Made by a program: the position numbers and the translations under genes. From the IMG/VR virus record IMGVR_UViG_3300033144_002260, positions 1 through 28,192 of that record: 28,192 nt of DNA. One strand, written 5' to 3'. How positions within the stretch are numbered: the first letter of the stretch is position 1; each line of letters begins with the position of its first letter. Shown here in pieces: positions 2,188 through 20,164 of this stretch. The notes under the pieces are model-generated. The model made no database searches. It was not told the origin of the DNA and saw nothing but the letters and a program-made list of their open reading frames with translations. Source of the DNA: a virus.

Positions 2188-5100
2188 CGAGGTTTCCTCG
2201 CATTACGTTCTTTACGATCTTCACGCTCACTCCTACCTGTGTCTTCTCTCTTGGGCAGTTCAGGTAATATATGTACTATTCTATCTGTAGTTTCATATAA
2301 TATCCTAGCTACGTTCTTAATAATGTCATCAGTATCCTCACCATCCTGACCTAGTTTACTCAACTCAAATCCGATTTCAGTAAGACCTGTAGCTGTTATA
2401 CTAAGAGCAGGGGATAGAGGAGTCCAGAAAGCGCGTCCTAAAGCATAAGCCGAACCTAGTCCTAATCCGACGAGGATCGTATTAGCAGCAAATCTACCTG
2501 CTAATTGATTAGCTACATTAAATGCTCCTCTCCTAGCACGAGCCCTACTCTGAGGAGTGTTATCCTTAATACCTTCTATCATAGGTCTAATACCGCGATT
2601 GTAAAATAGATCATACACACCTCTGGGATATGTATAGATGCCTATCTTTTCTCTCTGTGCCCTCGTCCTCTCAATACCGGCCCGCTCAGTTGTCTCATAT
2701 GCTCTGAATATATCATACGTGTAAGTGTCAGCTATATAGTTCGATAGTGCTCTTATATCACCAGAAGATAACAGTTCACGAGCTACACGAGTTTGTGAGT
2801 TACTCATCATAGTATCTACGTTTGTCTTATGTAGATACTTATTATAGTCCTTAGTAGTCTTAGCACTTTTACTGTACTCAATCGCTGCGTCCTTAGTACT
2901 TTTATAAACTGTAGGCCACAGACATGCTCTACTAACAGTATCAACACCTACATATGCGAAGCCTGTCTTATCGAGTAACCACTTTGTCATCTCAACGCCA
3001 CGAGCAGGTAAGTTATCAGCCCTAGCTTTTGCGTCTATATCACGGAACATAGCATCCTTATATTGAGAACCTCTCTGACTAATATAACTATCAAATGAGT
3101 TATGAAAGTCTTCTGCCATCTGAGGGTCTATCTGTGCAAGTGTATTACCTCTTACTAACTGATTAACTATATCAAACCCTGTCTTAAGCATCTCTGTAGT
3201 ATTAGTAGCCCCACCTGACTCGGCCATAAACTGGAGACTGTTCCTTATAGTTGCCTTAGTTGCACCATATGGATTAGTTACAAGTGATAAGTGAGTTCGC
3301 CAGAATGTAGCATGTAGCTTCTGTAGCATTACAGAGTCTGAGTCAAGATTACCTTTTAACAGTACATCACTATATAGACTATTAAGATACGCGTCATCTT
3401 TGTTACTCAAGGGTGCTTTATTGTATCTACTATACAGTGTCTTAATGTCCTCAGAGACTGCGTTTCTAACTGACGTCTTTTCATGAGCGTTCATGATATT
3501 AGCAAACACTGACCCAGTCTTGGGAGTACTTTTACCTCTACGAGCACGAGCCTTGCCGCTTATAGAAGATGGTTCTAGTGCTTCAGCAGACGCATATGAG
3601 TCTATGGGGTCAGCAGTCGCGTTCTTCAGTAAGTCTAGGACTTCATTAGTATGCTCACCTTCCGCTGGATAGTAATAACGTCTGAGACCTATACGAAGAC
3701 CACTGTCATACATCTGTTTAGAATGCTCACTAAGACGGCCTGCTTTCTGAGCAGCCTTAGCTTGGTCAAACATTTCCTTCTTCTGCTTTTTAGTAAACAG
3801 CGGACGCCCTGCATCATCAGTTCTATTAAGATTAGCAGGCATCTTACCATTATCAACCCAGAGTCTCATAGCTTCGAGCATTGATTCTTGTGCTACAATA
3901 CTGTCTTGTAGAATATTATCTAACGATTGTGCTGTGTTAAGATCAGTCTTAGACATATCAGGTGTTAACTCATCGCGGCCTTCTTGATCTTCGAATAACC
4001 AGTTGGCAATCTGCTTATTTGATTCTATACTAGTGTTCTGTATGAGTGTATCAACACCTTTCATAACTGCTTTAGTCTGCTGTTTAGTTAACTGTTTATC
4101 ATGAGGGAATCCTGCAAGTATTTTTGCGAACTCTTCACGGGCGTTATGCCCAGTTATCTTGGCTTTCTTAAGTGTTTGGTAATGTAAGTATGTGACCGGT
4201 ATGCTAGTCTTATCTTCAAACTGTGCAACCGCTACACGAGATGGTGCAAGTTTGTTTATGAGATCCTTCTTCTTACCCCTAGCATCGGCAGTCTTAACTT
4301 GGCGATTTGTAGTATTAACATTCCGCATCTGCTTACGTCTATCTATATCTTGTTCTTTTCTAATATTCTTGTCAGGTGATACTATCTTAGAACCTGTGTC
4401 ACCTGCTAAGAGTATACGGTTCTCAGTTGTGATATTACTAGTTACGTAAGTGCTCTTGAGAGCATTGTTGAATTCTGTTAATTGTTCCTTATTCATTGTA
4501 GCTGCAGACCGCTTACCTGTGGTCTTGAAAGCAATGTGTCTGTACTGAGCATCGCCGATCTTCATTTCCTTCTGTGTCTTATGAACAGTGCTCTTGAGAG
4601 CATTGAGTTCTTTCTTCGTTGTAGCAGCAGCCTTAGGATCAGTGATTTGATTTAATGCTCTCTTCATAGCAGCAACAGCTTTTGGTTTTTTTGATAGCAA
4701 CAATCTTGCAAAGACTTCTGCTCGTACTGCGTCTTGAACTACACTGCTAACGCCTAAAGACGCTTCTGCTCCGCCTTCAGGCGTTTTAAGCCATTCTTGC
4801 AACCCAGCATCTATCTGTTGTGGCGTAAAACGTTTTCCTAACTCTTTCATTACATCGACAGTTTTCATCAACATAACTTCTGATGTTGGATCTTCAAATT
4901 TGACGCCCTCAGCAGTAAGCGGATCTTCACTAATGAACTCGCCAGTCCGAGCATCTTGTATAACAGGTCTACCGATCACACTTTCAATGTCACGCATTAG
5001 GTCATTGTGAGCAGTTAGCTTTTCACTATTAGTCAAGTCTTTGCCTTTTAATAGTTTAGTCTGCTTACTCGTCAACTGATTAGCTATCTCATTTTCTTCA

Positions 5101-6539: not shown

Positions 6540-6541
6540 AA

Positions 6542-7720
6542 TTATTTACTCGGTACATAACCGTGCTGCTTAGCAAAATCGACATCTTCTGGAGCAGTCC
6601 ATACAACGTCGTTAGGATCTGTAGAGCCTTTAGGTATCATCTTTATAAAGCCTCTATCATCAGTTACAGTCTTAGCATCAGGTGCTTTCTTAGTACCAGA
6701 CGTCTTCTTAGTACCAGTAGTTTTCTTAACAGCAGCCCTAACATTATCCTTCACTGGTGTCTTAGTGTCTTCAGGAGGAGACTGGGCATCCCACTGAGCA
6801 CCAAAACCTCTAGATCGAGCTTCCTGTTCCGTCATAACTTGGAACTCCTTAGGACCTATCCATCCGTAAGGACCTGTTGTACCGAAGCCTACATTTTCTT
6901 TAACTTTGATCTTCCTAAGCTCAGGGGCAACCCCTCCAGTATCTTGTGCAATACGTAGCTGTGCCATAGCATCTGGACTGTACTCAGTCCTATTATCAAT
7001 ATCAGACTTGATAGTAGACTGAGTAACAGGCGTAGTTTGCTTCTGTGTAAGCTTTTCACCTGCACCTTTAGCTCTCTCTGCGTCTCTATATGCTATCTCA
7101 CCAGCCGCTGCGAGTTTAATACCTTCCTGGTCACCTGCTTGTATAGCCTGTGCCATAGCTACGCGATCATTAGGGCTCTCCATAGTTGCAATCCCTTGCA
7201 TCTGTTGATTAAGAGCACTAATCTTATATTGCTGCTCTAGGGTCATTAGTTTGATAGTTTGATTCGCTGCGTCGTTCTGTGTAGCTAGGCCTTGCATCTC
7301 GGCTCTGGAAGTCTTAGCAATCTCATCTGCGAATACCATAGATCTTTGTTCAGCTGGTGACATCTTGTCTAATTGAGCAATTCTGATCTCGTTCTCTTGT
7401 CTCTTAGCCTTTGCAGCTTGAGCGGCGTCTTTGATTCCAGCAGCACGGAGAACGCGTTCTTCTCTACGTAAGTTAACAGAGTCTTTAGACGTGAACTCTT
7501 TATACTCAGCGATCTTCTGAGCTGTAACTATATCCATGTTATTAGCTTGAGCGAGGTTAAGAGCGTTTTTAGGACCGAGTGCTTCTCTATCAATATCTAT
7601 TTGCTGTTGCCGTAATTTCCTAGTCTTAGCTTGCTCACTAAGAGACGACATCTGGAGCATGAAGTTCATTATTTGACTAGGTCCAGTATTTTCTTTTGGA
7701 GCAGGTACTACAAAACTCAT
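6542..7720 (-). CDS. Helical internal virion-like protein (392 aa)
   Basis: The first ~230 residues are rich in Gln, Ala, Lys, Arg and Glu with heptad-like spacing, so a long helix or coiled coil is likely. A linker follows with a short structured patch (around residues 270-300), then a Lys/Thr repeat tail (KKTTGTKKTSGTKKAPDAK) and a C-terminal end rich in Pro and Asp. There is no signal peptide or membrane segment. It sits between a Gly/Ala-rich protein and the giant protein, the usual place and style of podovirus internal or ejection proteins. The start at 7720 has a GGAGAT ribosome binding site upstream. The assignment rests on position and composition; no conserved domain was recognised. 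Confidence 0.55.
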   Translation of the reverse strand: MSFVVPAPKENTGPSQIMNFMLQMSSLSEQAKTRKLRQQQIDIDREALGPKNALNLAQANNMDIVTAQKIAEYKEFTSKDSVNLRREERVLRAAGIKDAAQAAKAKRQENEIRIAQLDKMSPAEQRSMVFADEIAKTSRAEMQGLATQNDAANQTIKLMTLEQQYKISALNQQMQGIATMESPNDRVAMAQAIQAGDQEGIKLAAAGEIAYRDAERAKGAGEKLTQKQTTPVTQSTIKSDIDNRTEYSPDAMAQLRIAQDTGGVAPELRKIKVKENVGFGTTGPYGWIGPKEFQVMTEQEARSRGFGAQWDAQSPPEDTKTPVKDNVRAAVKKTTGTKKTSGTKKAPDAKTVTDDRGFIKMIPKGSTDPNDVVWTAPEDVDFAKQHGYVPSK

Positions 7721-7739
7721 TATATCATCTCCTTAGTTT

Positions 7740-8606
7740 TTAATCTAATAAACCGCCGCCTATGCTTGACCCTATACGTGCACCCATTAGTGCCTGGGTA
7801 GCAGTCAGACCACCAGGCATTGCAGCAGCAACACCGAGTCCAGCTAACGCACCGAGTCCAGATCCTAAGCCGCTCTTAGAACCCTGTATACCTACAGCAG
7901 TCTTAGTCGGAGTAGTTGCAAAACCTAAGGCCGCTGATATCAAAGCATTGTACTGCTCACGAGCTATGTCCATAGGTAACTGCCTCAGTGATCTCTCGGC
8001 CTCAGCGATACCAGCAAACATTCCAAACTCAAGACCTGGTAATCTTGTTCTCTGATCAATAGCAGCACTTACACGACCAGCTGCGGCCTCACCACTTTGA
8101 AACGCCCGAGACTCATCAGCCTGATAAGCATCATATAGTCTAGGTGTTATGTTCTCACCTACAAATCTATTTAGTTCTTTAGTAACACCCCTTGCACGGT
8201 CACGAGACTGAAAACCGCCAGGTATCCCAGCAAACTGCTCTTCTACCATTGGCAGAACATTTTGGATATAAGTCTCTATCATAGGATTAGCAAAGTTCTG
8301 TTGAAACCTATTCTTTGTAGCACCCTCATCAAAGGCGTAAGCTGGAATCCCACGGATCTGTCTATCCAGAGCTATCCTATTAAGAGCACTAGTATCACCG
8401 AAGACACTGAACTGATCCTCTGCTCTCCCATATGCTCTATTAAACAACTCAGGTGCTCGTGCTGAAGCGCCCAAACCAAAAGGTAGATTGCCACTCTGTA
8501 GAAAGCGATCAAACATAGGGCCCAGATTCTTATTCGTAGATTGAGCAGCGTCTGATAATAGATTTACTATCTTAACCTTACTACTACTACCACCAAATAA
8601 TCCCAT
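7740..8606 (-). CDS. Gly/Ala-rich internal or ejection-like virion protein (288 aa)
   Basis: The product begins MGLFGGSSSK and ends with a ~50-residue Gly/Ala-rich low-complexity hydrophobic tail (GLGSGLGALAGLGVAAAMPG and following). The middle (about 60-220) is helical with many Arg and Gln. Phage proteins with this build, adjacent to tail hub and core genes, are often DNA-injection proteins whose glycine-rich tail can interact with membranes. The start at 8606 has AAAAGGAG seven bases upstream. The intergenic gap before it contains one copy of the recurring palindrome, between the stop of the holin-like gene and this ribosome binding site. The ejection role is inferred from position and composition only. 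Confidence 0.5.
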   Translation of the reverse strand: MGLFGGSSSKVKIVNLLSDAAQSTNKNLGPMFDRFLQSGNLPFGLGASARAPELFNRAYGRAEDQFSVFGDTSALNRIALDRQIRGIPAYAFDEGATKNRFQQNFANPMIETYIQNVLPMVEEQFAGIPGGFQSRDRARGVTKELNRFVGENITPRLYDAYQADESRAFQSGEAAAGRVSAAIDQRTRLPGLEFGMFAGIAEAERSLRQLPMDIAREQYNALISAALGFATTPTKTAVGIQGSKSGLGSGLGALAGLGVAAAMPGGLTATQALMGARIGSSIGGGLLD

Positions 8607-8621
8607 AATTATACTCCTTTT

Positions 8622-8644
8622 ACTTGTTCAATAATTGAACAAGT
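8622..8644. repeat. Intergenic palindrome, copy 1 of 3
   Basis: A perfect inverted repeat: arms ACTTGTTCAAT and ATTGAACAAGT around a single A. The core TTGTTCAAT-A-ATTGAACAA is identical in copy 3. It lies between the stop of the holin-like gene (TAA at 8644-8646) and the AAAAGGAG of the next gene. No T-tract follows on the minus strand, so an ordinary Rho-independent terminator is unlikely. Confidence 0.9.
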
Positions 8645-8883
8645 TAATGTGTTGTAAGGTGATCATATAACAACTTACCTGCTAGTGTAAGCAATACACC
8701 TACTTCAGCTATCGTTACCCAAATTAGTAGTTTGTGTCTCTGCTCATTCTTAACAACACGAGTGACTAGACCCTCTTTACCGTTTCCTCTAATAGCAGTA
8801 TCCACAGCCCTTATCATTGTTTTGAGTTCGGCAAATTCCGCTTTGCATATATCGTTGTACTGATCTTTGTAACATTTATCCAT
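8644..8883 (-). CDS. Small holin-like / XhlA-like membrane protein (79 aa)
   Basis: The N-terminal ~50 residues are charged and look like an amphipathic helix or coiled coil. A single predicted membrane helix follows (about residues 52-70, LLIWVTIAEVGVLLTLAG), then a short charged tail. Size and layout match XhlA/haemolysin-type holin partners and small phage class III-like holins. The gene lies between a virion surface protein and internal proteins, and no endolysin is visible nearby, so a membrane-anchored virion or spanin-like role remains possible. The start at 8883 has a strong AGGAG. The leader is identical over 15 bases to that of the 63-aa plus-strand gene. Its stop abuts palindrome copy 1. 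Confidence 0.5.
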   Translation of the reverse strand: MDKCYKDQYNDICKAEFAELKTMIRAVDTAIRGNGKEGLVTRVVKNEQRHKLLIWVTIAEVGVLLTLAGKLLYDHLTTH

Positions 8884-8891
8884 GTTATCTC

Positions 8892-9665
8892 CTATATTGA
8901 CTCTTCACCTAAGCTATCACATAAGTACTCAAGATGGTACTCTCCAATTAGAGCATCCCCAGTATAGTTATCATCTTCTGCTTCCCCCGCTCCGCCTGTA
9001 TATGTACCATCTACATCGCGGAAGAACCTAAACAGAACTATATGTTCCTTACTAATACCTGTAGTATTAGGTGTACATATATCGCTCTCATGCCAAACAT
9101 AATTACCTTCACCATTTGCAATAGTAATATTTACAGAATGGCCAGCATCAGGAGTGTCAAAATTAGCTGGGAACGTATCCCCAGGAGCAATACAAATACA
9201 CTCAACACCCATAGCTACGTGTGCAAGTCCATTTTCATTCGCTACCATGCCATTAAAGTGACCACGAATACTCGCAGCACCTTCATAATAATTACTTGGT
9301 ACATGCCACATAAAGAATACATGTTCTTCAGACGTATCATCATAAGCGTCGAATAGAAGAAGATTAGCAGGATAATAAACAGCATCTGGATTGTTTGCTG
9401 CTGGGTGTTTTACTGTCTCAGGGTCTAAGTCTACACAATTCCATACTTTTGCTGTACCTGCCATTGTCTGATGGCCGTTAGTACTAATATCTGTGTAGTT
9501 ATCTGGGCTACCTATCCTAGTACTAACAAACTCCTTAGGTCCACCTTCAAGTAAGGAGCGGTCAATGAGTATACGTCGGAGCTCAACAAGGAAACGTCTC
9601 ATATCATCAGAGGAATCCTTAGGTATATTCGGGAAGATAAACGGAATTTCTATATTTTCTGCCAC
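8892..9665 (-). CDS. Beta-rich virion protein, probable fibre or receptor-binding protein (257 aa)
   Basis: After a short helical N-terminus (about residues 17-40, enough for oligomer contact or tail attachment), the protein is acidic and aromatic-rich with alternating strands. Segments such as HVFFMWHVPSNYYEG and NYVWHESD fit a jelly-roll or beta-sandwich. No enzyme motif is seen. It starts at a GTG (9665) that overlaps the TAG stop of the tail-hub gene by one base (TAGTG), implying coupling with the hub. A GGGA lies upstream as a weak ribosome binding site. Neighbour position and strand-rich composition suggest a tail-associated surface protein; it could also be a head fibre. Confidence 0.5.
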   Translation of the reverse strand: MAENIEIPFIFPNIPKDSSDDMRRFLVELRRILIDRSLLEGGPKEFVSTRIGSPDNYTDISTNGHQTMAGTAKVWNCVDLDPETVKHPAANNPDAVYYPANLLLFDAYDDTSEEHVFFMWHVPSNYYEGAASIRGHFNGMVANENGLAHVAMGVECICIAPGDTFPANFDTPDAGHSVNITIANGEGNYVWHESDICTPNTTGISKEHIVLFRFFRDVDGTYTGGAGEAEDDNYTGDALIGEYHLEYLCDSLGEESI

Positions 9666-11668
9666 TAATCCCTCGCAGTCTGTGGTTCAACCTTACACTT
9701 AAATAAGCCACGCAATTGCACATCTTTATCAGATGCTTGATATAGTCTAAACATTATACGTCTATTCACAACATCAAGTGGTAATCTGTGTGTAGTCCAC
9801 TCTTGATTTAGATTAACGGGTGAACCAGTTAATTCTGTCCAACTAGATCCGGAGTTAGTACTATACTGAACGACCAAAGTAGAATCAACAACACTACTAA
9901 GAGCCTGAAAAGAGAACCATGTCCATCTACCATATTGCTCTTCTTCATTCACTATAAACTCTGGTGTATATAAGTCAAACGTTATATCTGTAGAATCATC
10001 CTGACCCGTTACCTCATCTAACTGATACACGTAACCATCATCAGATATAAACGCAGCTACCTCATAATCTGTCTGCCCCGAACCGTCATCGCAGTACAAA
10101 GCACTCTCATCACAATATACATCTTTCAAAGGATCTTCGTCACAGTACCAGTTAAACCCAGCTTGTATACTACCAAAGCCTCTTATGGTTTTAGAAAAAT
10201 CATGAGTCTCCCATGAGAGCATACTTGATCTATAGTTGAAACAATAACTGAAATTCGCATAGTTCTCAGCCCCAGATCTTGGTAATAAAAAGTGTACTTT
10301 ATACTTACTCCTATCAACACCTGATGCTATGTGTTGCTTCTTACTAACATCTAATGTAGTGAATAAGCTATCATCAACGAACTCACCAACGGGTACTAGA
10401 TCGGTGTCGCCATAGTATGCGTATACTTTCTGATCGCTTCCAAGTATGATATGAACACTAGCGATCTTAGCAACTGACTTAGTAGACATAATACCAGTAC
10501 CAAATACTAAGGTCGGGAATGTAAAGATAGTTAGCCCACCATAGTACCGACCGACAGTTATAGAATCTTCTGAATAAAGAATAAGTGCTGAACCCAACTT
10601 GACAGCTGCAAGTAGAGCACCTATAGTATCTGTAAGTGTATTAGCACCTGCGTTATCAGAAGCATGATCATCTACATCACCAGCGGCTGCATATAGCAAA
10701 GTCTTGACTTCTCTTTTAACAGCAATTGTAGGATGAATCAGCATCATGTGGTTCCAGAACTCAGATAATAATCTACATGTAGAAGCACTAGAACCGTGTA
10801 CTAATAGCTGAAACCTATCATTAGACTGGCCTTCGTAGTAATATATATCATCTACACCATTACAGATACACAATGCAGTACCACTATTATGACTAAATTC
10901 TGTTGTATCTGTACCGTCGAACTCTGTAGCATGATTAGCATACACAGATACAGACTGAGCACCGTCTATATCTGGAGTAGCCATATCAACTGTAAATGCC
11001 AATCTCGTCCATGTATCAGCTGGAGCCGCTGCATGAACAGCACTGATAACCTCAGTTCCTCCCTTAGCACCATTTACTTCTTCAGTCACAACTATCTCAA
11101 GAGAATTAGCAGATAACCCAGTACTCTTGGGATAAACCCAGAGTCTAATCTCAGTATAAGCAGTAACATCCGTAGCACCAGTTAGTGCAATATATGCTAA
11201 CAGATCACCGTCACTTACATCAGCTACACAATCTATAAAGATAGCAGCACTTGAGGGAGGAGAGGATACAAAATGGGGCGTAATTATTAAGTTATCAGCG
11301 GATACACTATCAGCACTAGCAGCACTAGCACCATCCGTCCAGTTACTAGATCCATTAGCTAGTACAACACCTGGAGTAATATCATCCCAACTATCGTGAG
11401 TACCATTATACTCAAACGCTGATGTAGTTGTGACAGCAATCTCGTGTCTAGAACCTACAGCATCTACATAGGTAATAAGATCTGTACCAACTCCTGGAAG
11501 TGGGAGAGCTACGGCACCAACTTGGGATATCCCACGACGCTTACGAACTTTAGTCAACTCAGCATAAGCATTCTTCATAAAAGGAGAGAACGCATCTGAG
11601 AACTTTGTAGGTTCCTGGTTAGTATTCAACCCTTTTGTAGGAACAGGATATGCTAATATCTCACTCAT
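9665..11668 (-). CDS. Tail hub / nozzle-like protein (667 aa)
   Basis: The N-terminal pattern (KGLNTNQEP, then SPFMKNAYAELTKVRKRRG) resembles the opening of podovirus tail-hub or stabilization proteins (P22 gp10-like; T7 gp12-like nozzle), where a strand pairs and an Arg-rich segment precedes a beta-propeller. The rest is strand-rich with many Asp and Tyr. The middle looks like a carbohydrate-binding or beta-sandwich insert (about 120-250). Around residues 505-535 there are three closely spaced YCD[ED] units (YCDED, YCDES, YCDDG). The start overlaps the stop of the 48-aa gene (ATGA at 11665-11668), and the following gene begins within its stop codon. The hub assignment follows from N-terminal resemblance and position; the length is in the normal range. 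Confidence 0.55.
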   Translation of the reverse strand: MSEILAYPVPTKGLNTNQEPTKFSDAFSPFMKNAYAELTKVRKRRGISQVGAVALPLPGVGTDLITYVDAVGSRHEIAVTTTSAFEYNGTHDSWDDITPGVVLANGSSNWTDGASAASADSVSADNLIITPHFVSSPPSSAAIFIDCVADVSDGDLLAYIALTGATDVTAYTEIRLWVYPKSTGLSANSLEIVVTEEVNGAKGGTEVISAVHAAAPADTWTRLAFTVDMATPDIDGAQSVSVYANHATEFDGTDTTEFSHNSGTALCICNGVDDIYYYEGQSNDRFQLLVHGSSASTCRLLSEFWNHMMLIHPTIAVKREVKTLLYAAAGDVDDHASDNAGANTLTDTIGALLAAVKLGSALILYSEDSITVGRYYGGLTIFTFPTLVFGTGIMSTKSVAKIASVHIILGSDQKVYAYYGDTDLVPVGEFVDDSLFTTLDVSKKQHIASGVDRSKYKVHFLLPRSGAENYANFSYCFNYRSSMLSWETHDFSKTIRGFGSIQAGFNWYCDEDPLKDVYCDESALYCDDGSGQTDYEVAAFISDDGYVYQLDEVTGQDDSTDITFDLYTPEFIVNEEEQYGRWTWFSFQALSSVVDSTLVVQYSTNSGSSWTELTGSPVNLNQEWTTHRLPLDVVNRRIMFRLYQASDKDVQLRGLFKCKVEPQTARD

Positions 11669-11811
11669 CTATGTTTCTTCTTCCTAACCTTCTTTCCTGT
11701 CTTAAGACTCCGACTTGTTTTAGCTTGAGCAATTCGAGCGGCAGATGCATTACTCTTCCCACTTCTCAACAGTGCTTTGTATATCTTATGTACTTTAGTT
11801 CCCTTAGGCAT
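11665..11811 (-). CDS. Small basic protein (48 aa), coupled to the tail hub
   Basis: A 48-residue ORF begins MPKGTKVHKIYKAL and ends KKVRKKKHR. It is strongly basic, with a central small-residue helix (NASAARIAQAKT) and a Lys/Arg C-terminus. I recall similar 40-60 aa 'MPKGTKVH' proteins encoded between structural genes in other phages, usually without a known function. Its TGA overlaps the ATG of the tail-hub gene (ATGA), so it may couple hub translation. It starts two bases after the stop of the preceding fibre-like gene. It fills the only gap in the coding of this stretch. A nucleic-acid-binding or virion minor component role is possible but unproven. Confidence 0.75.
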   Translation of the reverse strand: MPKGTKVHKIYKALLRSGKSNASAARIAQAKTSRSLKTGKKVRKKKHR

Positions 11812-11812
11812 T

Positions 11813-12712
11813 TTACTGTCCGATAGCGCAACTTTTTATATCTGTTCCACTAAACCCTACATCCTCAACCTTCCAAGTCCAGCCATTAGGAATTAAACCA
11901 TTAACACTATATGTCCAGTCAGCTAATGGATCGTCGCCATGTGTAGTCGAGGCATATGCCTTATCAATAATTACATAGCTGCCACCAGAAGCTTTACCAT
12001 ACAGAATTAATGTCCAGTCTGTTCCAGAGGCAGGTAAATTTACTTCGGCGTAAGCTCTTACAAATTCAAATTTGGCAGTTACTTCATATTCTGTGTCTAT
12101 ATCTTTTGCTGCATAATCAGCTGTTGCGATACTATCATCTACATACTTCATATTAGCAACATGACCGTCTACTGTAGGAGCAGCAGATGTCATAAGCACA
12201 GCTGCATGGGCAGATGCTATTTCAAGGACACCAGTTGAGTTAACTTTAATCATATCAATAGATGTAGACGGTTCACCTGCTTTAAGTGCTTTGATAAAAG
12301 CATCATTATCAAGACTTACACGTACAGCTGTACCGGCATAAGCGGCCCGTACACCTTGAAAACCCGTACTTACACCAGCACTTGTTGCTACATATACTCT
12401 CATAGTATTAGTCAACCCAGTACTAACACCACCACCAGTAACAATAGCAACGCGGCCGTTATTAGTACCAGTACTTGCATCTGTACCTAGGCTAGTAACT
12501 CCATCTGGCATAAGTGTAGGAAGTGAACCACTCATGTAAACTCTAGCGGCACCTTTGAGATGCTGACCGCCGCTATTAGACGCACCTAGTGCTGCGTGTT
12601 CCTTCTGTATGATCGTTTTAGTAGCTAACTTAAGATCTCTAGTCTGACTCGGTCTAGCAGATACTTTACTATGATCTATAGGAACATCTACATCCCAATC
12701 CTGACCAGCCAT
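11813..12712 (-). CDS. Fibre-like virion protein (299 aa)
   Basis: The N-terminal 60 residues (basic, with a helical stretch DLKLATKTIIQKEHAAL) look like an attachment segment. A beta-rich low-complexity middle follows, with repeated small residues (Gly, Ser, Thr, Ala). HVANMKYVDDSIATADYAA resembles the strand-helix junction common before a C-terminal domain in phage tail fibres. The last ~90 residues are a separate beta-sandwich-like domain. No catalytic motif is seen. The start has AGGAG upstream. It lies between the adaptor-like protein and the small basic or hub genes, so a tail or head fibre is the natural reading. Confidence 0.55.
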   Translation of the reverse strand: MAGQDWDVDVPIDHSKVSARPSQTRDLKLATKTIIQKEHAALGASNSGGQHLKGAARVYMSGSLPTLMPDGVTSLGTDASTGTNNGRVAIVTGGGVSTGLTNTMRVYVATSAGVSTGFQGVRAAYAGTAVRVSLDNDAFIKALKAGEPSTSIDMIKVNSTGVLEIASAHAAVLMTSAAPTVDGHVANMKYVDDSIATADYAAKDIDTEYEVTAKFEFVRAYAEVNLPASGTDWTLILYGKASGGSYVIIDKAYASTTHGDDPLADWTYSVNGLIPNGWTWKVEDVGFSGTDIKSCAIGQ

Positions 12713-12727
12713 ATTACTTACTCCTAA

Positions 12728-13498
12728 TTAGTACCATATATCTATAGAACCGTACCTATCATGATTAGTTGCATTTCCTTGTCGGTCGTAGTTTATTAAA
12801 CCATTCTTAACTGCTATGCCCCCACTTCTAGTACATGCTCCAGGCCCCTGAGCAACCATCTCTTCTGATATGTCATACTTGTCAGTTCTAATAGCATGAC
12901 CCAGAGTACCACCGACTATACCACTATCCCACTTGAAACCCAGTGCTATATTCTTCCAATATGCGTAGCTCTCTGTATTCTGTAGAGATAAGAACACAAA
13001 GGCTGTGACGTACTGAGTGATAAAAGTATCTAAGATCTTTATAGGTGTCTCAGTAGAATCATTGGTAAAGGTCTTCTCTTGAGAGACTATGAGTTGTAGC
13101 TGCAAATCGTCTGAGGCAGGTCTCTCTAATAAGATTGTAGACTCCCACCTAAGACCGTTCCTAGGCCAACCCTTCTGATTATCGTCAGGATTCACAACAT
13201 TCCTATCCCACCACGACCTATCACGCATAAACAGCGGTGCATATAGACTACCACTATCTTGTATAATGCGAGCAGTTACTATATGTACGAGATCGGATAT
13301 AGCAGATATATCAACTGATGTCGCATCCTCTGTGATGTCTATAATAGTAGGATCATCTTGCGAGTCTCGAAACGGGTGCTCATTGATGGCTACCTTAAGA
13401 GCTTCATCACAGAGGGACTCTATAAGAGTAGCCTTCTCAGTACCACGACCTGTATTATTATCCACAGCTGTCTTGATCTGAGCCCTTGTTTTAGCCAT
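12728..13498 (-). CDS. Head-to-tail connector / tail adaptor-like protein (256 aa)
   Basis: The protein opens with a helical segment (LIESLCDEALKVAINEHPFRDSQDD) followed by strands. It contains a WW-bearing loop (RDRSWWDRNVVNPDD) and a later helix-rich segment (YVTAFVFLSLQNTESYAYWK). This strongly helical N-terminus, a mixed middle and ~200-260 aa length are typical of podovirus tail tubular A or adaptor proteins that sit under the portal (T7 gp11 class). It lies between a small virion protein and a fibre-like protein, before the hub, the usual place for an adaptor. Start at 13498 has GAGGT upstream. No alternative family is recognised. Confidence 0.55.
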   Translation of the reverse strand: MAKTRAQIKTAVDNNTGRGTEKATLIESLCDEALKVAINEHPFRDSQDDPTIIDITEDATSVDISAISDLVHIVTARIIQDSGSLYAPLFMRDRSWWDRNVVNPDDNQKGWPRNGLRWESTILLERPASDDLQLQLIVSQEKTFTNDSTETPIKILDTFITQYVTAFVFLSLQNTESYAYWKNIALGFKWDSGIVGGTLGHAIRTDKYDISEEMVAQGPGACTRSGGIAVKNGLINYDRQGNATNHDRYGSIDIWY

Positions 13499-13510
13499 TT
13501 TATCACCTCA

Positions 13511-13819
13511 TTATGCGTGCATCTGAATGAACGTAGCAGCGGTTGCAGCAGCTGGAGCGACACTACAAATAAACGCTTCATCAGTGTCTTCTCTATATGC
13601 TAGATCTCCAATCTCAACTGGGTATGTATCATGACTATTAGCATCCACAGCGGGATCGGCTGAAGCCGCGTACCACACCCGCTTCTGCCACTTACGCAAG
13701 TTCAGACTGTGTAAACTACCATCTGCAGCAGTTATATAACTAGTACCTCTTAACAATCTTTGAAGAATCTTTGAGAAGACTCTTCTTTGAGACTTAACAA
13801 CTGTTAGTGAATTAGCCAT
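13511..13819 (-). CDS. Small virion-associated protein (102 aa), function unknown
   Basis: I do not recognise this protein. It starts basic (KSQRRVFSKILQRLLRG), then looks beta-rich with Ala and Asp, and has no membrane segment. The start at 13819 lies eight bases inside the end of the aminotransferase gene and has AAGGAG seven bases upstream. It is followed immediately by the adaptor gene. By position it is probably a minor head or neck protein of the same operon, not part of the sugar cassette. Confidence 0.6.
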   Translation of the reverse strand: MANSLTVVKSQRRVFSKILQRLLRGTSYITAADGSLHSLNLRKWQKRVWYAASADPAVDANSHDTYPVEIGDLAYREDTDEAFICSVAPAAATAATFIQMHA

Positions 13820-14912
13820 CTTTGTACTCCTTAACAGATTCTATAATATGATCTCTTTGTGCAATAGATAACCACCACCCTACAGGGATACATACATGGT
13901 GCTTATCAAAGAATTCTACACCTGGAAGTTCGGTCGCACTAGCTACAAATATCTTCTTAGTGTCATTCCTATCGTGTACTCTACTACAAGCGATACCACA
14001 ATTCATCATATATGCTATGAAAGAACTAACGTTATCTACTATGATCGTATATAACCAGTACGAAGGATCTACGTTATCTGGTATACTAGGTAAGGTCACA
14101 GTGGATAAACCATCAAATGCTTCGTTGTACTTAGTAGCATTACATCTCGCAGCTTTTATTATGCCTTTCACATGTTTCAAGTTACTCAAACCAATGGCCG
14201 CAGCTATATCATTCATGTGCATCTTATAACCAAACTCAGGCGGATCTTGGTTACATCTCATATCACTGGACAACTCACGATCAAGACCGAACCATTTCAT
14301 GAGACGTGCTCGCTTAGTAGTTTCTGCGTCTTTCATAAAGAGTGCTCCGCCATCTCCACAAGTTACTGCTTTGATAGCTTGAAAAGACGTACATACATAA
14401 TCACTATGATTACCGATCTTAGTATGATCGATTTCAGTACCGAAAGCTTGAGCGGCATCTTCTATAACTGGCACATCATACTTACGACCCAAGTCATTTA
14501 TACTCAGCACATCACAAGGAGTCCCGCCCCAGTGCATACACATAATAGCTTTGATAGAATGCTCAGACAGTACAGCGTCTAGACTATCCGGAAGCATATT
14601 TCCAGTACACGCATCAACATCTACCCATACAGGAATAGCACCAAGCATAAGTATTGCTTCATTAGTCGCCAAGCACGTCATAGGAGTACTAGCAACTAGG
14701 TCACCTCTTCTTACACCTGCTAGTCTTAGTGCAAGCATGAGAGCACTAGTACCACTATTAGTAATTGCAACATTAGGATTTCCTACATAGCGACCGATTG
14801 CTTCTTCAAACTCCTTAACAACAGACCCTTCACCTATGTAGCCTGAACTAAGAACAGTACGAACAGACTCATGAGCAACCTTAGACATGAACACTTTGAA
14901 TAATGGTATCAT
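13812..14912 (-). CDS. DegT/DnrJ/EryC1/StrS-family PLP aminotransferase
   Basis: The product is 366 aa, the usual length of this family of sugar aminotransferases, which transfer an amino group onto a nucleotide-keto-sugar using pyridoxal phosphate. Hallmarks are clear. NSGTSAL (52-58) is the phosphate-binding loop. VIEDAAQAFG (149-158) carries the Asp152 that contacts the pyridine nitrogen, with Gln155. SFQAIKAVTCGDGG (176-189) holds the Schiff-base Lys181. A later patch, GYKMHMNDIAAAIGLSNL, is conserved in the family. The N-terminus (IPLFKVFM, then SGYIGEGSVVKEFEE) also fits. All catalytic residues seem present, so the enzyme is probably active. It is the last of four genes coupled by ATGA overlaps: GT-A, GT-B, methyltransferase, aminotransferase. 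Likely product: an amino-sugar donor; the precise sugar is unknown. Confidence 0.9.
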   Translation of the reverse strand: MIPLFKVFMSKVAHESVRTVLSSGYIGEGSVVKEFEEAIGRYVGNPNVAITNSGTSALMLALRLAGVRRGDLVASTPMTCLATNEAILMLGAIPVWVDVDACTGNMLPDSLDAVLSEHSIKAIMCMHWGGTPCDVLSINDLGRKYDVPVIEDAAQAFGTEIDHTKIGNHSDYVCTSFQAIKAVTCGDGGALFMKDAETTKRARLMKWFGLDRELSSDMRCNQDPPEFGYKMHMNDIAAAIGLSNLKHVKGIIKAARCNATKYNEAFDGLSTVTLPSIPDNVDPSYWLYTIIVDNVSSFIAYMMNCGIACSRVHDRNDTKKIFVASATELPGVEFFDKHHVCIPVGWWLSIAQRDHIIESVKEYKDG

Positions 14913-15403
14913 CTTAACACCTTTCTAGTTTTTTTGTGTTGCTCAGCAACAATACTTATCTGTGACCCCTTAATAGGAGTCATAACTACAGTAATTAAAC
15001 CTTGTTCTTGGTACTCATATACAAGTAGATTCCACGGCTTAGGTTCATATACTTTATACTTCACATGGTTAGGAGTATAGTACAAAAATGTCCACTCATT
15101 CGGACAGCTATAACCGATAGGATCATGGTGAGCTCTATCACCTTTGTAATACTGATCTATGATCTGCAACTTACAATCAGGTGCAAGAATACGCCAACAC
15201 TCATCCATAAAATGTATTCTATACTTAGGCTCTATGATTTGCCAAGCGAGTCTCATCAGTATAGCATTACAACTATTATCTTCAAGAGGCCAAGGAAACT
15301 TACATACATTATGTACTATATCCACACCTGTAACAGCACGTATATCCATGCCAGTAAAACCTTCTTGCTTGTACTGCCCACAACAGACATCTAACTTAAT
15401 CAT
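14909..15403 (-). CDS. Small class I SAM-dependent methyltransferase-like protein (164 aa)
   Basis: Short methyltransferase fold: a motif I-like LDVCCGQ (4-10), the Asp20 that should bind the SAM ribose (GMDI), a strand FPWPLEDNSCNAIL (36-49) typical of motif III, and FMDECWRILAP (65-75), the helix and loop before motif V. It is shorter than most enzymes of the class; the C-terminal half is rich in Tyr and probably substrate-binding. The genes on both sides overlap it by ATGA, making it the third cistron of a sugar cassette. A sugar O-methyltransferase is a plausible role, based on context. Protein or nucleic acid methylation is not excluded. Confidence 0.75.
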   Translation of the reverse strand: MIKLDVCCGQYKQEGFTGMDIRAVTGVDIVHNVCKFPWPLEDNSCNAILMRLAWQIIEPKYRIHFMDECWRILAPDCKLQIIDQYYKGDRAHHDPIGYSCPNEWTFLYYTPNHVKYKVYEPKPWNLLVYEYQEQGLITVVMTPIKGSQISIVAEQHKKTRKVLR

Positions 15404-16221
15404 ACTATTAACTCCTTATAAAGAGGTATGATTTTATCTATATGATACTCTTGTGCTTTAGCATAAGCCGTCTCAGCTATAGATTCATAAGCTGCTTCCG
15501 ACCCCTTAAGTATCTTTACACGACTCACTATTTGATCTAAATTCTCAGCACGAATAAAGCATCCATCCCACTCAGCGACGTAGCTCATCTCAGGATATGC
15601 TATAGTAGGTATCTTGAAAGAACCTGCGTTTGCAAGTTTTAATGGATTCTTCAATGCAGGCTCAAACTGAGAAGCATACATAGCTCCAGGTTTTCTAAAG
15701 CACAACTGAACATCTATGCTCTTATAGAAGTTACAGATATTCACACGATCTTCCATCTGCGTCTCAGTAACAAACTCAACATCTATACTCGCAAGTGCAG
15801 TAGAAACAGCACCAAACTGCAGATGGAAGTTCTCTGTATAACCACAGAACCCAACACGTTCTACCTTCGGTCTATCACGTACTTCGTTTTTGAAGTTACA
15901 ATGATGCTCAGGTATTAAAATAATATCGTCTCGACCAAGTAGCTTAGTCAGATAACGATGAGCAGTTACACCTATAGCAATAACCCCAATATGCGGCATA
16001 TCTTTTGCACGTTCCGCAAGTGCTACGCTATCTACAATGTCTAGATAATAACTACTAACATAATCAGCAATTTCCTTATTAGGACAACACTTAACACAGA
16101 TAAGTATATCATCACAGTGAATATGCTTAGGATTCACAACAGCGTTTTCTAGTCTCGCTGCTATTTGCTCACCTCTTATCTTAGCTGAGGCCCACGGATT
16201 AGTAAAAAATACATATCTCAT
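15400..16221 (-). CDS. GT-B-type glycosyltransferase-like protein (273 aa)
   Basis: The C-terminal half carries the donor-site pattern of GT-B glycosyltransferases: VGFCGYTEN (123-131), then KNPLKLANAGSFKIPTIA (191-208) and the following AYPEMSY, as seen in CgeB/group-1-like enzymes. The N-terminal half (residues 1-110) is the first Rossmann-like domain, short for this fold. No membrane segment is seen. It lies between a GT-A glycosyltransferase and a methyltransferase, with ATGA overlap at both ends, so all are likely made in a fixed ratio. It probably transfers a sugar onto a glycan, protein or lipid; donor and acceptor are unknown. Confidence 0.75.
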   Translation of the reverse strand: MRYVFFTNPWASAKIRGEQIAARLENAVVNPKHIHCDDILICVKCCPNKEIADYVSSYYLDIVDSVALAERAKDMPHIGVIAIGVTAHRYLTKLLGRDDIILIPEHHCNFKNEVRDRPKVERVGFCGYTENFHLQFGAVSTALASIDVEFVTETQMEDRVNICNFYKSIDVQLCFRKPGAMYASQFEPALKNPLKLANAGSFKIPTIAYPEMSYVAEWDGCFIRAENLDQIVSRVKILKGSEAAYESIAETAYAKAQEYHIDKIIPLYKELIV

Positions 16222-16922
16222 GGCGACACACTCCTTGAGTCAAAATACTCGCCTGTTTGTCCGTGCCTAAGAAGCATTTGGTCAAGTTCGATCCCATGAT
16301 TCTGATTATAATACTCAGCACTCTGCGGATATACAATGCGTCTTTGTCCCAGATGGCCCACTAAAACGCGAGTATCAATAAACATCTTCTCACCTATATC
16401 CCTAAACATCTTACAGAGATTGACGTCACTACGGATATTGACGCCTTCAAAACAAGTATCCCTAAAATACGGTTTCTTAAGCTTCTTTAACTTCTCAAGG
16501 TTAATCAACGTACAACCGAACGCACAAGTTGATACTTCATAAACTCGGCCGTCCAGAGGTAGTGTGACTTGGAAGAAATTTTCTTTACCTTCTACCTCAT
16601 GGACTTCCCAAGCTACTTGTTGAAAATTCTCACCTTTCTTACAAATAAGCCCAGATACCATAGCTTCATCAGCACACTCAACTAGATAATCAAGTGAGTT
16701 CTCTGTAATAAGGTGATCACCATCCAGAAAAAACGCATGAGTACAATTCTCTGCAAAGCACTTCTCAATTATCCTATTCCGTGCTTGTGCAGCTTGTAAC
16801 CCTTTCTTTCCTACAAATACAATATCGTACTTCTTACCCCAGTTAGCTGATAAGTATAAATGATTGAAGTACACATCAAAGTCCACTGTATCAAACACGT
16901 GGATACACAATGCGATTCTCAT
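16218..16922 (-). CDS. GT-A-type glycosyltransferase-like protein (234 aa)
   Basis: Compact GT-A fold: a strand MRIALCIHVF, the QARNRII patch (46-52), and a hydrophobic strand ending in FLDGDH (65-70), the DxD motif that binds the metal and nucleotide-sugar phosphate. C-terminal to it are segments typical of small phage GT-A enzymes, such as VSGLICKK and FGCTLINLEKLKK. It is the first gene of the coupled sugar cassette; its stop overlaps the start of the GT-B gene. Its start at 16922 has GGAG upstream. The role is sugar transfer, with substrate unknown. Alternative: a glycan-binding protein that lost activity, but the DxD is intact. Confidence 0.8.
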   Translation of the reverse strand: MRIALCIHVFDTVDFDVYFNHLYLSANWGKKYDIVFVGKKGLQAAQARNRIIEKCFAENCTHAFFLDGDHLITENSLDYLVECADEAMVSGLICKKGENFQQVAWEVHEVEGKENFFQVTLPLDGRVYEVSTCAFGCTLINLEKLKKLKKPYFRDTCFEGVNIRSDVNLCKMFRDIGEKMFIDTRVLVGHLGQRRIVYPQSAEYYNQNHGIELDQMLLRHGQTGEYFDSRSVSP

Positions 16923-16950: not shown

Positions 16951-17508
16951 TTAAAGACACCTGATGTCCACGTAAGCTGAGTATGCTGTAGCAGCACCCG
17001 TTGTTGCGTGCAGTCTAACTAACCTAACACTCTTAGCGACGTGCATAGGAGCAAGACCTGCAGAGTCAATAGGTACAACAGACCTCGCCCATGCTGAATC
17101 AACAGCATCAGTCGGTATAGAAATTGCACCAACCAACTGATCAGCGGCAGTTGCACTCTGTGTCATACTAACCTTCTTTAACCCCTTAACCTGAATCCAT
17201 CCGTAATCGCCCGTATCAGAACCGCTTGGTCCAATAGCAGTCATCGCAGCCCCAGCAGCATTATTAACAGCGGCACTGGCTGCAGTAGACGGCCCAGCCG
17301 CAGAAGGCGCTACAACCCGCTTATTGATAGCATCGATAGCAGATGTTGGCAATACTAGACACGGTGCTGTACCAGTTAAACCTGTAGTACCTGCGTTCTT
17401 AACCCATCTATAGACTTTCCCCTTATGAGGATACAGAGAACCTATTACATCTGCATCATATGTTCTCAACTCATTAAGAGGAACCTTAATTAAACGTTTG
17501 TCAGCCAT
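16951..17508 (-). CDS. Probable head decoration or capsid-associated protein (185 aa)
   Basis: The protein lies just after the capsid gene (apart from the homing endonuclease) and is small, Ala/Thr/Gly-rich and probably beta-rich. The second half has short strand segments such as YGWIQVKGLKKVSMT and SVRLVRLHATTGAA. Composition and place are those of a head decoration protein that stabilises the mature shell, or of a head fibre. It has no enzyme motif. Its leader shares TGGAGATTT with capsid and portal genes, a likely strong ribosome binding site, and lies downstream of palindrome copy 2. The role is inferred. Confidence 0.55.
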   Translation of the reverse strand: MADKRLIKVPLNELRTYDADVIGSLYPHKGKVYRWVKNAGTTGLTGTAPCLVLPTSAIDAINKRVVAPSAAGPSTAASAAVNNAAGAAMTAIGPSGSDTGDYGWIQVKGLKKVSMTQSATAADQLVGAISIPTDAVDSAWARSVVPIDSAGLAPMHVAKSVRLVRLHATTGAATAYSAYVDIRCL

Positions 17509-17569: not shown

Positions 17570-18004
17570 TTATAACCCTCGATGATTTAACTCCTTGATA
17601 CGCTCGATTATCATACGCTCTTCATCCTCATTAGTCTTTCCATGGTAACCGTCATCAAACCTTAGATCAATAAACTGCATGATCAACGCAGCGTGCTCTT
17701 GCTTCACAACTAAGTAAGGCTTAAGTATATCGCACAGTGTATATACATTCTTGCTACTAACAACGTTAATCTCATAACACATCTTACGATTACCTGTGGT
17801 TGTTTTCCTGGACATAGATGCATGTATACCCCAACCGTCTAACACACACTGAATCAAGTACAGCACTTCATAATGAGTATTTCCTACCTGCACTCTAGGC
17901 TGCCCTCTGGAGTTTTGCTCCGACACAGCTATCCTAAAACAGCCTTCACCATCGAAGAACCCTGCGAGGTAGCAAGCAACTTCGTTGTAACTAAGATTTA
18001 GCAT
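17570..18004 (-). CDS. LAGLIDADG-family homing endonuclease (144 aa)
   Basis: The core motif LAGFFDGEG (13-21) is the LAGLIDADG helix; Glu20 is at the position of the metal-binding acid. Only one motif is present, so it would act as a homodimer. The rest of the protein has strand-helix segments that fit the DNA-binding sheet (GCFRIAVSEQ and RKMCYEINVVSSKNVYTL). It starts 15 bases after the capsid gene stop, with its own GGAG, and both flanking structural genes are complete, so it is free-standing and not intron-encoded. Expected role: cut a genome lacking it near the capsid locus and spread by repair. The gene is followed by palindrome copy 2, then the decoration gene. Confidence is high for the family; whether it is active is unknown. 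Confidence 0.9.
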   Translation of the reverse strand: MLNLSYNEVACYLAGFFDGEGCFRIAVSEQNSRGQPRVQVGNTHYEVLYLIQCVLDGWGIHASMSRKTTTGNRKMCYEINVVSSKNVYTLCDILKPYLVVKQEHAALIMQFIDLRFDDGYHGKTNEDEERMIIERIKELNHRGL

Positions 18005-18019
18005 ATCAAGTACTCCAAC

Positions 18020-19081
18020 TTATGACGCATAGAGCATAGTTCCATGCCGCCTAGGCTGTGATGTCGCTAGTCCTGGAGTCATACAGACAATATATGAAAC
18101 ACGCTCAAACTGGTTGGCCGTGTCCTTCCAAGGTGTCATCTCAAACCACACGTTCGGATGGAAGTTGAAATCTATGTAGTTCATGTTGAGCATATCCATT
18201 CTCAACGTAGTGATCTTATCCGTGTAAGAATAAGTAGCACCCCTGAACGTCACAGTTTCAAAGCCTAGATCCGCAGCTTTCTTATTGAACCCAGTTCTGA
18301 CAATCTGAATTCTATCACGCATCTCAGCAACGTATGCTTCATACAGTAACTGACCCGATATAATAAAGTTCGGGGACTCAGCGTTTGCAGAGATGGTATT
18401 GAAGAAATGGTCCATGTCCGAGACAAGGTTCAGATCATACGGCTCATTAGTTGGACCTGCAATTCTACTAGCGTTTGTCTGAGTCAGACCGTCTGCCATA
18501 ACCCAGTTACGCCACCAAGTATTGGTCCTACTAATATTACCGTTACTTGTACCCGTAGCATAAGTATCACTAGCAGCAACCGCACCTGACGGTGTAACAG
18601 CAGAATTAGGAGCAACAATATCTATGAGTCCATTCATCTGCTTGGGTGCATCATAGAACGCACCGTACTGTGATAGATAAGTCTCTATATCCTGTACGAT
18701 CGCATCACGGGCAGCACCGAGCCGCCGCGTCAAGTACGATTTGATCTGGAACTTGCCAGAATTCTTAGCATCATCAATGAGCGACCTGTTTACATCGACA
18801 CAGAAATAACGCCAGTCTAAGCGAGCAAAGGTATCCAACTGAGGTGTATCCTGATCTAAGGTACTACCTTCTTGGAACCGTTGAGTAGACTTCGTACCGT
18901 AACCAACAGTATCAGTCCACCCAAACTCGCCACCTACTTGCGGCTTCATAGCACCAAACTCTTTGAGAGCCAAGGTAAAAACAGTAGACTCAAGAATGTT
19001 GTCTACAACTTGTGCCCTGATCTCATACCAGGTGTTTACGAAGTCGTCTTCCAACTGTCTAGTCAGTGATGGAAGTGCCAT
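18020..19081 (-). CDS. Major capsid protein (353 aa)
   Basis: The N-terminus is helical (LEDDFVNTWYEIRAQVVDNIL), which is typical of the N-arm of HK97-fold capsid proteins. Next is a spine-like helix region (residues ~100-145, with DDAKNSGKFQIKSYLTRRLG). The middle and C-terminal half is strand-rich. The protein lies directly after the scaffold gene, with an unusually long 86-base gap holding a hairpin and the shared leader TGGAGATTT. Place, length and fold pattern all point to the coat protein. No sequence signature of a pre-cleaved delta domain is visible, so the scaffold is separate. The fold class is inferred, not proven. Confidence 0.85.
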   Translation of the reverse strand: MALPSLTRQLEDDFVNTWYEIRAQVVDNILESTVFTLALKEFGAMKPQVGGEFGWTDTVGYGTKSTQRFQEGSTLDQDTPQLDTFARLDWRYFCVDVNRSLIDDAKNSGKFQIKSYLTRRLGAARDAIVQDIETYLSQYGAFYDAPKQMNGLIDIVAPNSAVTPSGAVAASDTYATGTSNGNISRTNTWWRNWVMADGLTQTNASRIAGPTNEPYDLNLVSDMDHFFNTISANAESPNFIISGQLLYEAYVAEMRDRIQIVRTGFNKKAADLGFETVTFRGATYSYTDKITTLRMDMLNMNYIDFNFHPNVWFEMTPWKDTANQFERVSYIVCMTPGLATSQPRRHGTMLYAS

Positions 19082-19167: not shown

Positions 19168-19956
19168 TTATCGGCCTTCAACTGACAAAATCTTATCCGC
19201 AGCAGCATTTGCAATCTCCATAAAGCCTGCCTTACCGTGCTTCTGCGATCCTGACCTAGCTTCCCTGCCTCTTTGAGCAATAATCTCCATATTATCCGCT
19301 GTCATTGCCGTAGGATTCGGTTGACCAGGAGGAACCGCACCAGTAGACTGCGGCTTCTCAGTGTCAATCTGCCCTCTCGGCGGCGTAGCACCGGCTTTTT
19401 GACTCTTCGCTAGCAAATACGCATCTTCGTAATCCATACCTGGATACTTGTTGAGCACGTCTCGGATCTCTTCAGTGTGAGCATCAAAATCATCGTGCTT
19501 GTTTCTTGCTTTCTGAACTCCAAGACCTGCTATAATTTGCAGTGTGGTCTTTTCAAGCGTTCCAACCTTATCAAGTTGTGGCTGCATATCTGCTATGACA
19601 CTTTCTCGAACAGTCTGAGCATTACTCTTAAGAGCGCTATCTACTGAAGTACTGATGACGTCTAACAACTGCCTATTACTAAGTTTATCATACTTATCAT
19701 CATTATTCATATCATCAAGCATAGCATCTATATCTTGCTCAGGAGTCTTACTAGGTTTACTTTCCAAGCGGATTTGCGACTCCTGTAACGCCTGATACTT
19801 TCCCTGCAAGTCCACTAATGCTTGCTGGATTGGTGCCACTACTTCTCCCAGTGCTTGTTGCATTTGTAGCTTTTGCTTGTTCAGCGCTTCTTGTTCCTCT
19901 AATTTCTTTGCTTCCGCTTCCTTCGCTCTTTGTGCTTGTAGTTCCTCTGGCGTCAT
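19168..19956 (-). CDS. Scaffolding protein (262 aa)
   Basis: Almost wholly hydrophilic and helical: residues 1-70 are heptad-rich (Glu, Lys, Gln, Leu, Ala), as in a coiled coil. They are followed by acidic patches (DDMNNDDKYDKL), a helix pair, and a Pro/Gly/Thr linker before a basic C-terminal helix (FMEIANAAADKILSVEGR) that could bind the capsid. Position directly before the capsid gene is classical for a scaffold that shapes the procapsid and leaves before packaging. Its ATG at 19956 has AGGTGA seven to eight bases upstream. In its frame a TGA lies two codons before the ATG, so translation cannot run in from upstream. The first 200 bases overlap the end of another ORF in a different frame. 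Confidence 0.8.
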   Translation of the reverse strand: MTPEELQAQRAKEAEAKKLEEQEALNKQKLQMQQALGEVVAPIQQALVDLQGKYQALQESQIRLESKPSKTPEQDIDAMLDDMNNDDKYDKLSNRQLLDVISTSVDSALKSNAQTVRESVIADMQPQLDKVGTLEKTTLQIIAGLGVQKARNKHDDFDAHTEEIRDVLNKYPGMDYEDAYLLAKSQKAGATPPRGQIDTEKPQSTGAVPPGQPNPTAMTADNMEIIAQRGREARSGSQKHGKAGFMEIANAAADKILSVEGR

Positions 19957-20164
19957 CTGTCACCTGACCTTTCTTTTTCAATTCATAGTCTGCGATAATC
20001 TTATCTTTTCGATACTTCTTGATTATCAATCTCTGTTCCTTTTTGAGTGCCCTGATACACAGGTCTAACTCCTTCTTGTTTATGTAGTCACCATCGAAAG
20101 TAACCTGCGGATGCTGGTTATCTTCAAGAACTACTATAAACTTCCTAGGTGGACGTTCTTTCAT
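19757..20164 (-). CDS. Small protein overlapping the scaffold gene by 200 bases (135 aa)
   Basis: The first ~68 residues do not overlap another gene and look like a real small domain: strand FIVVLEDN, then a basic helix (KKELDLCIRALKKEQRLIIKKYRK). From residue 70 the ORF runs in a different frame inside the scaffold gene and becomes a Ser/Thr/Gly/Asn-rich tail, the composition expected where the scaffold frame imposes the bases. The start at 20164 has GGAG displayed in a small hairpin (ATTAAC-TGGA-GTTAAT). It follows the zinc-ribbon gene by 18 bases. Function unknown; a minor head or packaging factor is likely by position. The tail may be a by-product of a lost stop codon. Confidence 0.6.
   Translation of the reverse strand: MKERPPRKFIVVLEDNQHPQVTFDGDYINKKELDLCIRALKKEQRLIIKKYRKDKIIADYELKKKGQVTDDARGTTSTKSEGSGSKEIRGTRSAEQAKATNATSTGRSSGTNPASISGLAGKVSGVTGVANPLGK

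Follow-up and report, generated by a model that had tools for sequence, protein, structure and literature searches.

Glycosylation in tailed phages has been demonstrated only recently, in mycobacteriophages. Virion glycosylation was described for Che8, Corndog and Myrna (Freeman et al. 2023, as cited in PMC12363180, PMC11256854 and PMC12619734), and according to these sources the glycans sit at the C-terminal ends of the capsid proteins and of the tail tube proteins. In Sulfolobus turreted icosahedral virus (STIV), according to excerpts of PMC10551542, protein A197 is essential, the capsid protein is glycosylated and was proposed as the A197 acceptor, and glycosylation was proposed to occur in the cytoplasm. 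In Paramecium bursaria chlorella virus 1 (PBCV-1), the A064R protein combines a soluble GT-A domain with a second glycosyltransferase domain and a methyltransferase domain, and builds and methylates the end of the capsid glycan (PMC9614988). Here we analyze a sugar-enzyme cassette and the adjoining decoration gene in the IMG/VR virus record IMGVR_UViG_3300033144_002260, positions 1 to 28,192 (28,192 bp in all, hereafter the window), which comes from a tailed, podovirus-like phage. The phages of this group probably decorate their own capsids with a sugar that can be changed.

Enzymes and layout of the cassette

A preliminary description of this DNA had proposed four sugar-enzyme genes in a fixed order, with an ATGA overlap at each of the three internal junctions. 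The layout was confirmed, and sugar enzymes are supported for all four genes, for GT-A and GT-B through structure models. All four genes are on the minus strand and read, from 5' to 3', GT-A glycosyltransferase, GT-B glycosyltransferase, methyltransferase and DegT aminotransferase; the three junctions are 4-nt ATGA overlaps, and a Shine-Dalgarno-like stretch precedes each gene. The DegT gene in turn overlaps the downstream 102-aa gene by 8 nt. None of the four enzymes has membrane segments.

The core GT-A glycosyltransferase (234 aa; 16218..16922, minus strand) matches phrog_1574 (1.7e-9) and stays below the curated cut-off of PF00535 (Glycos_transf_2; E=0.0055, 17.1 bits vs 23.3), which is reached by the distant GT-A homologues of two relatives, L057 and L078. 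The GT-B-fold glycosyltransferase (GT4-like, 273 aa; 15400..16221, minus strand) has no family match at all in sequence family searches. Since these two proteins are nearly without sequence support, we relied on alignments of relatives (17 sequences for GT-A and 8 for GT-B) and on structure prediction, a comparison that the preliminary description had suggested. The AlphaFold2 models have predicted local distance difference test (pLDDT) scores of 89.5 (GT-A) and 90.8 (GT-B), and both matched solved sugar enzymes. At E <= 0.001 the GT-A model has 152 matches among solved structures, with GT-A enzymes at the top, which places it in the GT-A fold. Its best solved match is STIV A197 (PDB 2c0n; E 4.6e-10, template modelling scores 0.62/0.75, 18% identity), followed by protein glycosyltransferases of the collagen and mucin types (LH3, COLGALT1, GalNAc-Ts). 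The GT-B model matches the GT4-like GT-B enzymes SenB, GtfC, BshA and PimA (E 1e-8 to 1e-6) and has the corresponding fold. The DxD motif of GT-A, described earlier as intact, is indeed present as D67-G-D69 (residues 67-69); D69 is invariant in the 17 homologues and D67 nearly so.

The probable class I S-adenosylmethionine-dependent methyltransferase (164 aa; 14909..15403, minus strand) has a PF08241 match (E=0.0026) of 18.8 bits vs a cut-off of 21.2, which the homologous copy in relative L068 exceeds (27.8 bits). The DegT-type sugar aminotransferase (366 aa; 13812..14912, minus strand) is certain to belong to the DegT/DnrJ/EryC1/StrS family: PF01041 covers residues 14-360 with 258 bits (E=1.7e-76; cut-off 19.8), and the pyridoxal phosphate-binding lysine is intact as K181 in SFQAIK, invariant in 6/6 sequences. 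The solved structures closest to it over the full length are 4zwv/4xau and CalS13, with ArnB next; its predicted activity is the amination of a nucleoside diphosphate (NDP)-keto-sugar.

Linkage of the GT-A enzyme to the decoration protein

Relatives of the phage, here given L numbers, were collected by capsid-based scans of IMG/VR with alignment queries (capsid identity 35-89%). These capsid scans supplied the working set; single-protein scans returned at most two relatives, and the divergence of the GT-A alignment precluded its use as a query. Of the 29 relatives whose contigs extend past the decoration gene, 28 have a GT-A homologue immediately behind it, or 26 of 27 distinct ones once the record pairs L009/L010 and L068/L069, which look near-identical, are each counted once.

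The genes behind GT-A are variable and almost always encode sugar-modifying enzymes. The presence and absence comparison proposed earlier, which was decisive here, separates a near-constant GT-A from changing companions. The full window set is found behind the decoration gene in L002 and L068/L069. In other relatives GT-A is followed by a GT-B-LicD fusion and DegT (L007), by GT-B, a sulfotransferase-methyltransferase fusion and DegT (L008), by GT-B and DegT (L014, L027), by GT-B alone (L020), by a pyruvyltransferase (L074) or by another methyltransferase (L079). The methyltransferase is fused to GT-A in L009/L010, L013, L016, L018, L019 and L025; such a fusion is accompanied by a deacetylase in L021 and by GT-B in L023. 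No sugar gene follows GT-A in L012, L024, L058, L076, L078, L080 and L081, and the contig is cut behind GT-A in L051 and L057. Because of this variation, the window cassette is one version of a system consisting of a core GT-A and variable tailoring enzymes. It is not a chance arrangement, since L002 and L068, whose capsid is 55% identical to the L013-group query, carry the same four genes at the same place. Identities between L002 and the window are 86/60/79/71% (GT-A/GT-B/methyltransferase/DegT), and the ratios of nonsynonymous to synonymous differences (pN/pS), which are only rough because synonymous sites are near saturation, are 0.14 for GT-A, 0.43 for GT-B, 0.21 for the methyltransferase and 0.31 for DegT. 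The constraint on GT-A is thus near that on the capsid protein (0.11), and GT-B and DegT are looser.

The decoration (cement-like) protein (185 aa; 16951..17508, minus strand), our proposed acceptor, is a mosaic by both distances and trees. Its N-terminal part (residues 1 to ~42, 17508-17383) shares the history of the major capsid protein (18020..19081, minus strand; phrog_9953, E=4.7e-17), our yardstick of phage kinship, and its C-domain (residues ~43-185, 17382-16954) shares that of GT-A. The partial correlations of residues 1 to ~40 are 0.54 with capsid and 0.22 with GT-A, and those of the remaining ~140 C-terminal residues are 0.72 with GT-A and 0.16 with capsid, with the switch of history near residues 25-48. 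The control genes follow the capsid (capsid/GT-A partial r 0.87/0.28 for portal, 0.66/0.32 for the 102-aa gene and 0.88/0.15 for the connector-position gene), and the capsid protein does not track GT-A (r 0.25). In nine later-fetched phages the tie between C-domain and GT-A recurs (partial 0.57, 3/2000 permutations, a test that removes shared ancestry only in part).

The capsid and GT-A trees are in conflict. In trees of 25 phages, the eight phages of the GT-B type form one clade for the C-domain (support 100/100) and for GT-A (100/99), and this clade is rejected by the capsid data (approximately unbiased test, p-AU 2.5e-5). In the opposite direction, neither the C-domain data nor the GT-A data accept the clade of L023/L024/L025 that the capsid supports (100/100). 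The p-values are somewhat optimistic because the tested groups were named after the first trees had been seen. Two pairs illustrate the pattern: L024 and L025 have capsids that are 89% identical, C-domains 29% and GT-A 24%, and L023 and L009 have capsids 52% identical, C-domains 68% and GT-A 59%. These phages therefore encode a glycosyltransferase that is genetically tied to a virion protein, as expected of a self-glycosylation system.

Proposed module and alternative roles

We favor, with moderate confidence, the reading of this locus as a virion self-glycosylation module, in which GT-A glycosylates the decoration C-domain, the other genes elaborate the glycan, and acceptor and enzymes are exchanged together. 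In this reading the decoration gene itself belongs to the unit, a point that the preliminary description had missed. The N-terminal part of the decoration protein would fit the phage's own shell, and the C-domain, probably facing outward, would act as the acceptor. GT-A, as a cytoplasmic enzyme needing no lipid carrier, would place the first sugar on the C-domain; GT-B would add a further sugar, and the methyltransferase would cap the glycan. DegT may aminate a host-supplied NDP-keto-sugar to give an amino-sugar usable as donor; the keto-sugar precursor would come from the host, because an NDP-sugar dehydratase (PF16363) was found in none of 11 records. The modified amino-sugar proposed earlier is thus plausible for the window, which has DegT, and is not central to the system, as most relatives have no DegT gene at this place. 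The absence of membrane segments fits glycosylation in the cytoplasm, which would occur before or during assembly, in line with what was proposed for STIV A197 (PMC10551542) and described for PBCV-1 enzymes (PMC9614988). The presumed benefit is to shield or alter the particle surface.

The exchanged unit would comprise the decoration C-domain, GT-A and the tailoring genes, with the capsid and connector genes kept, and the simplest account of the joint movement of C-domain and GT-A is that acceptor and enzyme must match. Swapping the unit while keeping its own capsid would allow closely related particles to bear different glycans. More tentatively, the C-domain, its dedicated glycosyltransferase and the tailoring enzymes may constitute a mobile 'capsid serotype' unit, in which a matched pair of acceptor and enzyme passes from one tailed phage to another when recombination occurs within the decoration gene; by analogy, this could be compared with serotype switching in bacteria.

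Several points weigh against the self-glycosylation reading. Confident models make GT-A and GT-B glycosyltransferases by fold, and their catalytic activity is a prediction from this fold comparison alone; likewise, a glycan on a virion protein is predicted from co-inheritance and fold. The L024 GT-A has EHD at the DxD position, with E in place of the first D. In L011, the sole exception to the common gene order, the open reading frame (ORF) after the decoration gene (5640-5948) runs off the contig after ~100 aa or more and is not clearly a GT-A. The decoration label derives from position, size and one weak Phage_cement_2 match (PF09956, E=0.0016) in 1 of 16 members; sequence comparison links the decoration proteins to no solved structure. 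The 102-aa gene retains some GT-A signal (0.32, rising to 0.53 without L024), and in the nine later-fetched phages alone, a small and deep set, the tie between N-terminal segment and capsid is not significant (0.21, 370/2000). Finally, adjoining genes can hitch-hike, an explanation by linkage alone that is weakened by the comparison with the 102-aa, connector-position and portal genes.

Such adjacency is also invoked if the glycan is carried by another virion protein (major capsid, tail or fibre) and the decoration C-domain is carried along with GT-A only as its neighbor. The two genes do adjoin, and in mycobacteriophages capsid and tail tube proteins are known to be glycosylated (PMC12619734). 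Moreover, the window encodes a collagen-repeat protein (25340-26044, minus strand; PF01391, E=2.5e-17), a possible alternative acceptor because the GT-A model resembles collagen glycosyltransferases, though it is encoded far from the cassette. We consider a different acceptor rather unlikely: in phages with a GT-A fusion or GT-A only, the 102-aa gene lies equally near, yet across the set it follows capsid more than GT-A, and the history of GT-A is not mirrored in the capsid protein.

The preliminary description had left open whether the sugar decorates the phage's own virion or the host surface, for example against superinfection; re-adsorption of progeny would be a further target of a surface change. 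Enzymes of the DegT, LicD, deacetylase, pyruvyltransferase and sulfotransferase types are also found in surface polysaccharide loci. Some phage glycosyltransferases modify the host serotype (cited in PMC12619734). A host-surface role nevertheless appears improbable, as the four enzymes are without membrane segments, no tyrosine integrase was detected in nine records (three of ~45 kb), and across the group the locus lies within the block of virion genes. The own-virion option is better because the adjacent decoration C-domain is co-inherited with GT-A, which ties the enzyme to a virion protein. Hypermodification of phage DNA is very improbable. DNA-glycosylating phage glycosyltransferases are known (cited in PMC12619734); here, however, no thymidylate synthase/hydroxymethylase homologue was found in nine records, three of them ~45 kb, with a model that matches 9 of 14 control genomes, the closest GT-A folds are protein glycosyltransferases, and the tie to the decoration domain would be left unexplained.

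Source phage, flanking genes and described systems

The window carries its terminase, capsid and other virion-type genes on the minus strand; at one end, a primase gene has the opposite, plus-strand orientation. Named phages are only distantly related (terminase identity at most ~27%; capsid 24%, in one environmental podovirus). The single remote capsid relative among annotated phages is MW202803 (24%); its annotation shows no glycosyltransferase beside the capsid gene, and the GT-A profile gives no match there. No relatives of the window GT-A or GT-B were found among the annotated phages searched, and neither a host nor a prophage was found in the GTDB genomes searched.

The cassette was said earlier to lie between decoration and connector genes. 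This position is correct, but both labels are weak and a conserved 102-aa virion-type gene (13511..13819, minus strand) intervenes on the connector side, where it closes the module; its history follows capsid more than GT-A. The conserved connector-position gene (12728..13498, minus strand), labelled by position only, follows the capsid. Between these two genes L007 (15279-18170) and L013 (10412-15415) contain kilobases of extra genes, some of which look by eye as if they encoded proteins with concanavalin/LamG-type domains; this is another site at which the virion block varies. A LAGLIDADG homing-endonuclease-like ORF (17570-18004, minus strand; PF14528, E=1e-9) lies between the capsid and decoration genes and is absent from the corresponding site of L002, where the gap is only ~60 nt. 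Just upstream of the capsid gene, two minus-strand ORFs in different frames (19168-19956 and 19757-20164) have an unusually long coding overlap of 200 nt, and both are kept in L002 (67% and 65%). In L014 (1305-3632) the terminase match is split into pieces ~800 nt apart, as if an insert interrupted the gene.

If the self-glycosylation reading is correct, a whole group of uncultured phages glycosylates its capsid decoration protein by default, with the glycan as a swappable trait and the acceptor identified from sequence alone. The purpose of a phage capsid glycan would become testable with small soluble proteins in E. coli, and the group would supply matched acceptor-enzyme pairs for cytoplasmic protein glycosylation.

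Among described systems, STIV A197 resembles the window GT-A in being viral, cytoplasmic and of the GT-A fold. It differs in belonging to an archaeal virus with a jelly-roll capsid and in its 18% identity, and the excerpts of PMC10551542 describe no tailoring cassette. PBCV-1 A064R is likened by its virus-encoded set of GT-A, glycosyltransferase and methyltransferase, which recalls the GT-A-methyltransferase fusions in relatives of the window; the likeness is one of domain content, not of sequence kinship, and A064R is a protein of an algal giant virus that acts on an existing glycan chain. The environmental podovirus ctKR88 (MW202524, L033) has a GT-A-like protein (profile E 9.8e-10, hhalign 95%) in a sugar block (3147-11978) with several glycosyltransferase and methyltransferase genes between capsid and stabilization genes. 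However, it has no match by the capsid search or by the decoration, GT-B and DegT profiles, and its gene block is otherwise unlike. In titles and abstracts, with subscription literature mostly outside the scope, we found no phage decoration protein glycosylated by an adjoining glycosyltransferase.

The mycobacteriophages have tails and encode the glycosyltransferases that modify their virion proteins, as is predicted for the phages described here; they are likened by description, not by enzyme kinship, and the acceptors named for them are the capsid and tail tube proteins. The related mycobacteriophage Maravista has its glycosyltransferase genes close to the genome's 3' end, apart from the structural genes. 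Virion glycosylation in phages is thus already known, and what is new in the window group is a GT-A gene directly behind the decoration gene, whose C-domain is inherited together with it.

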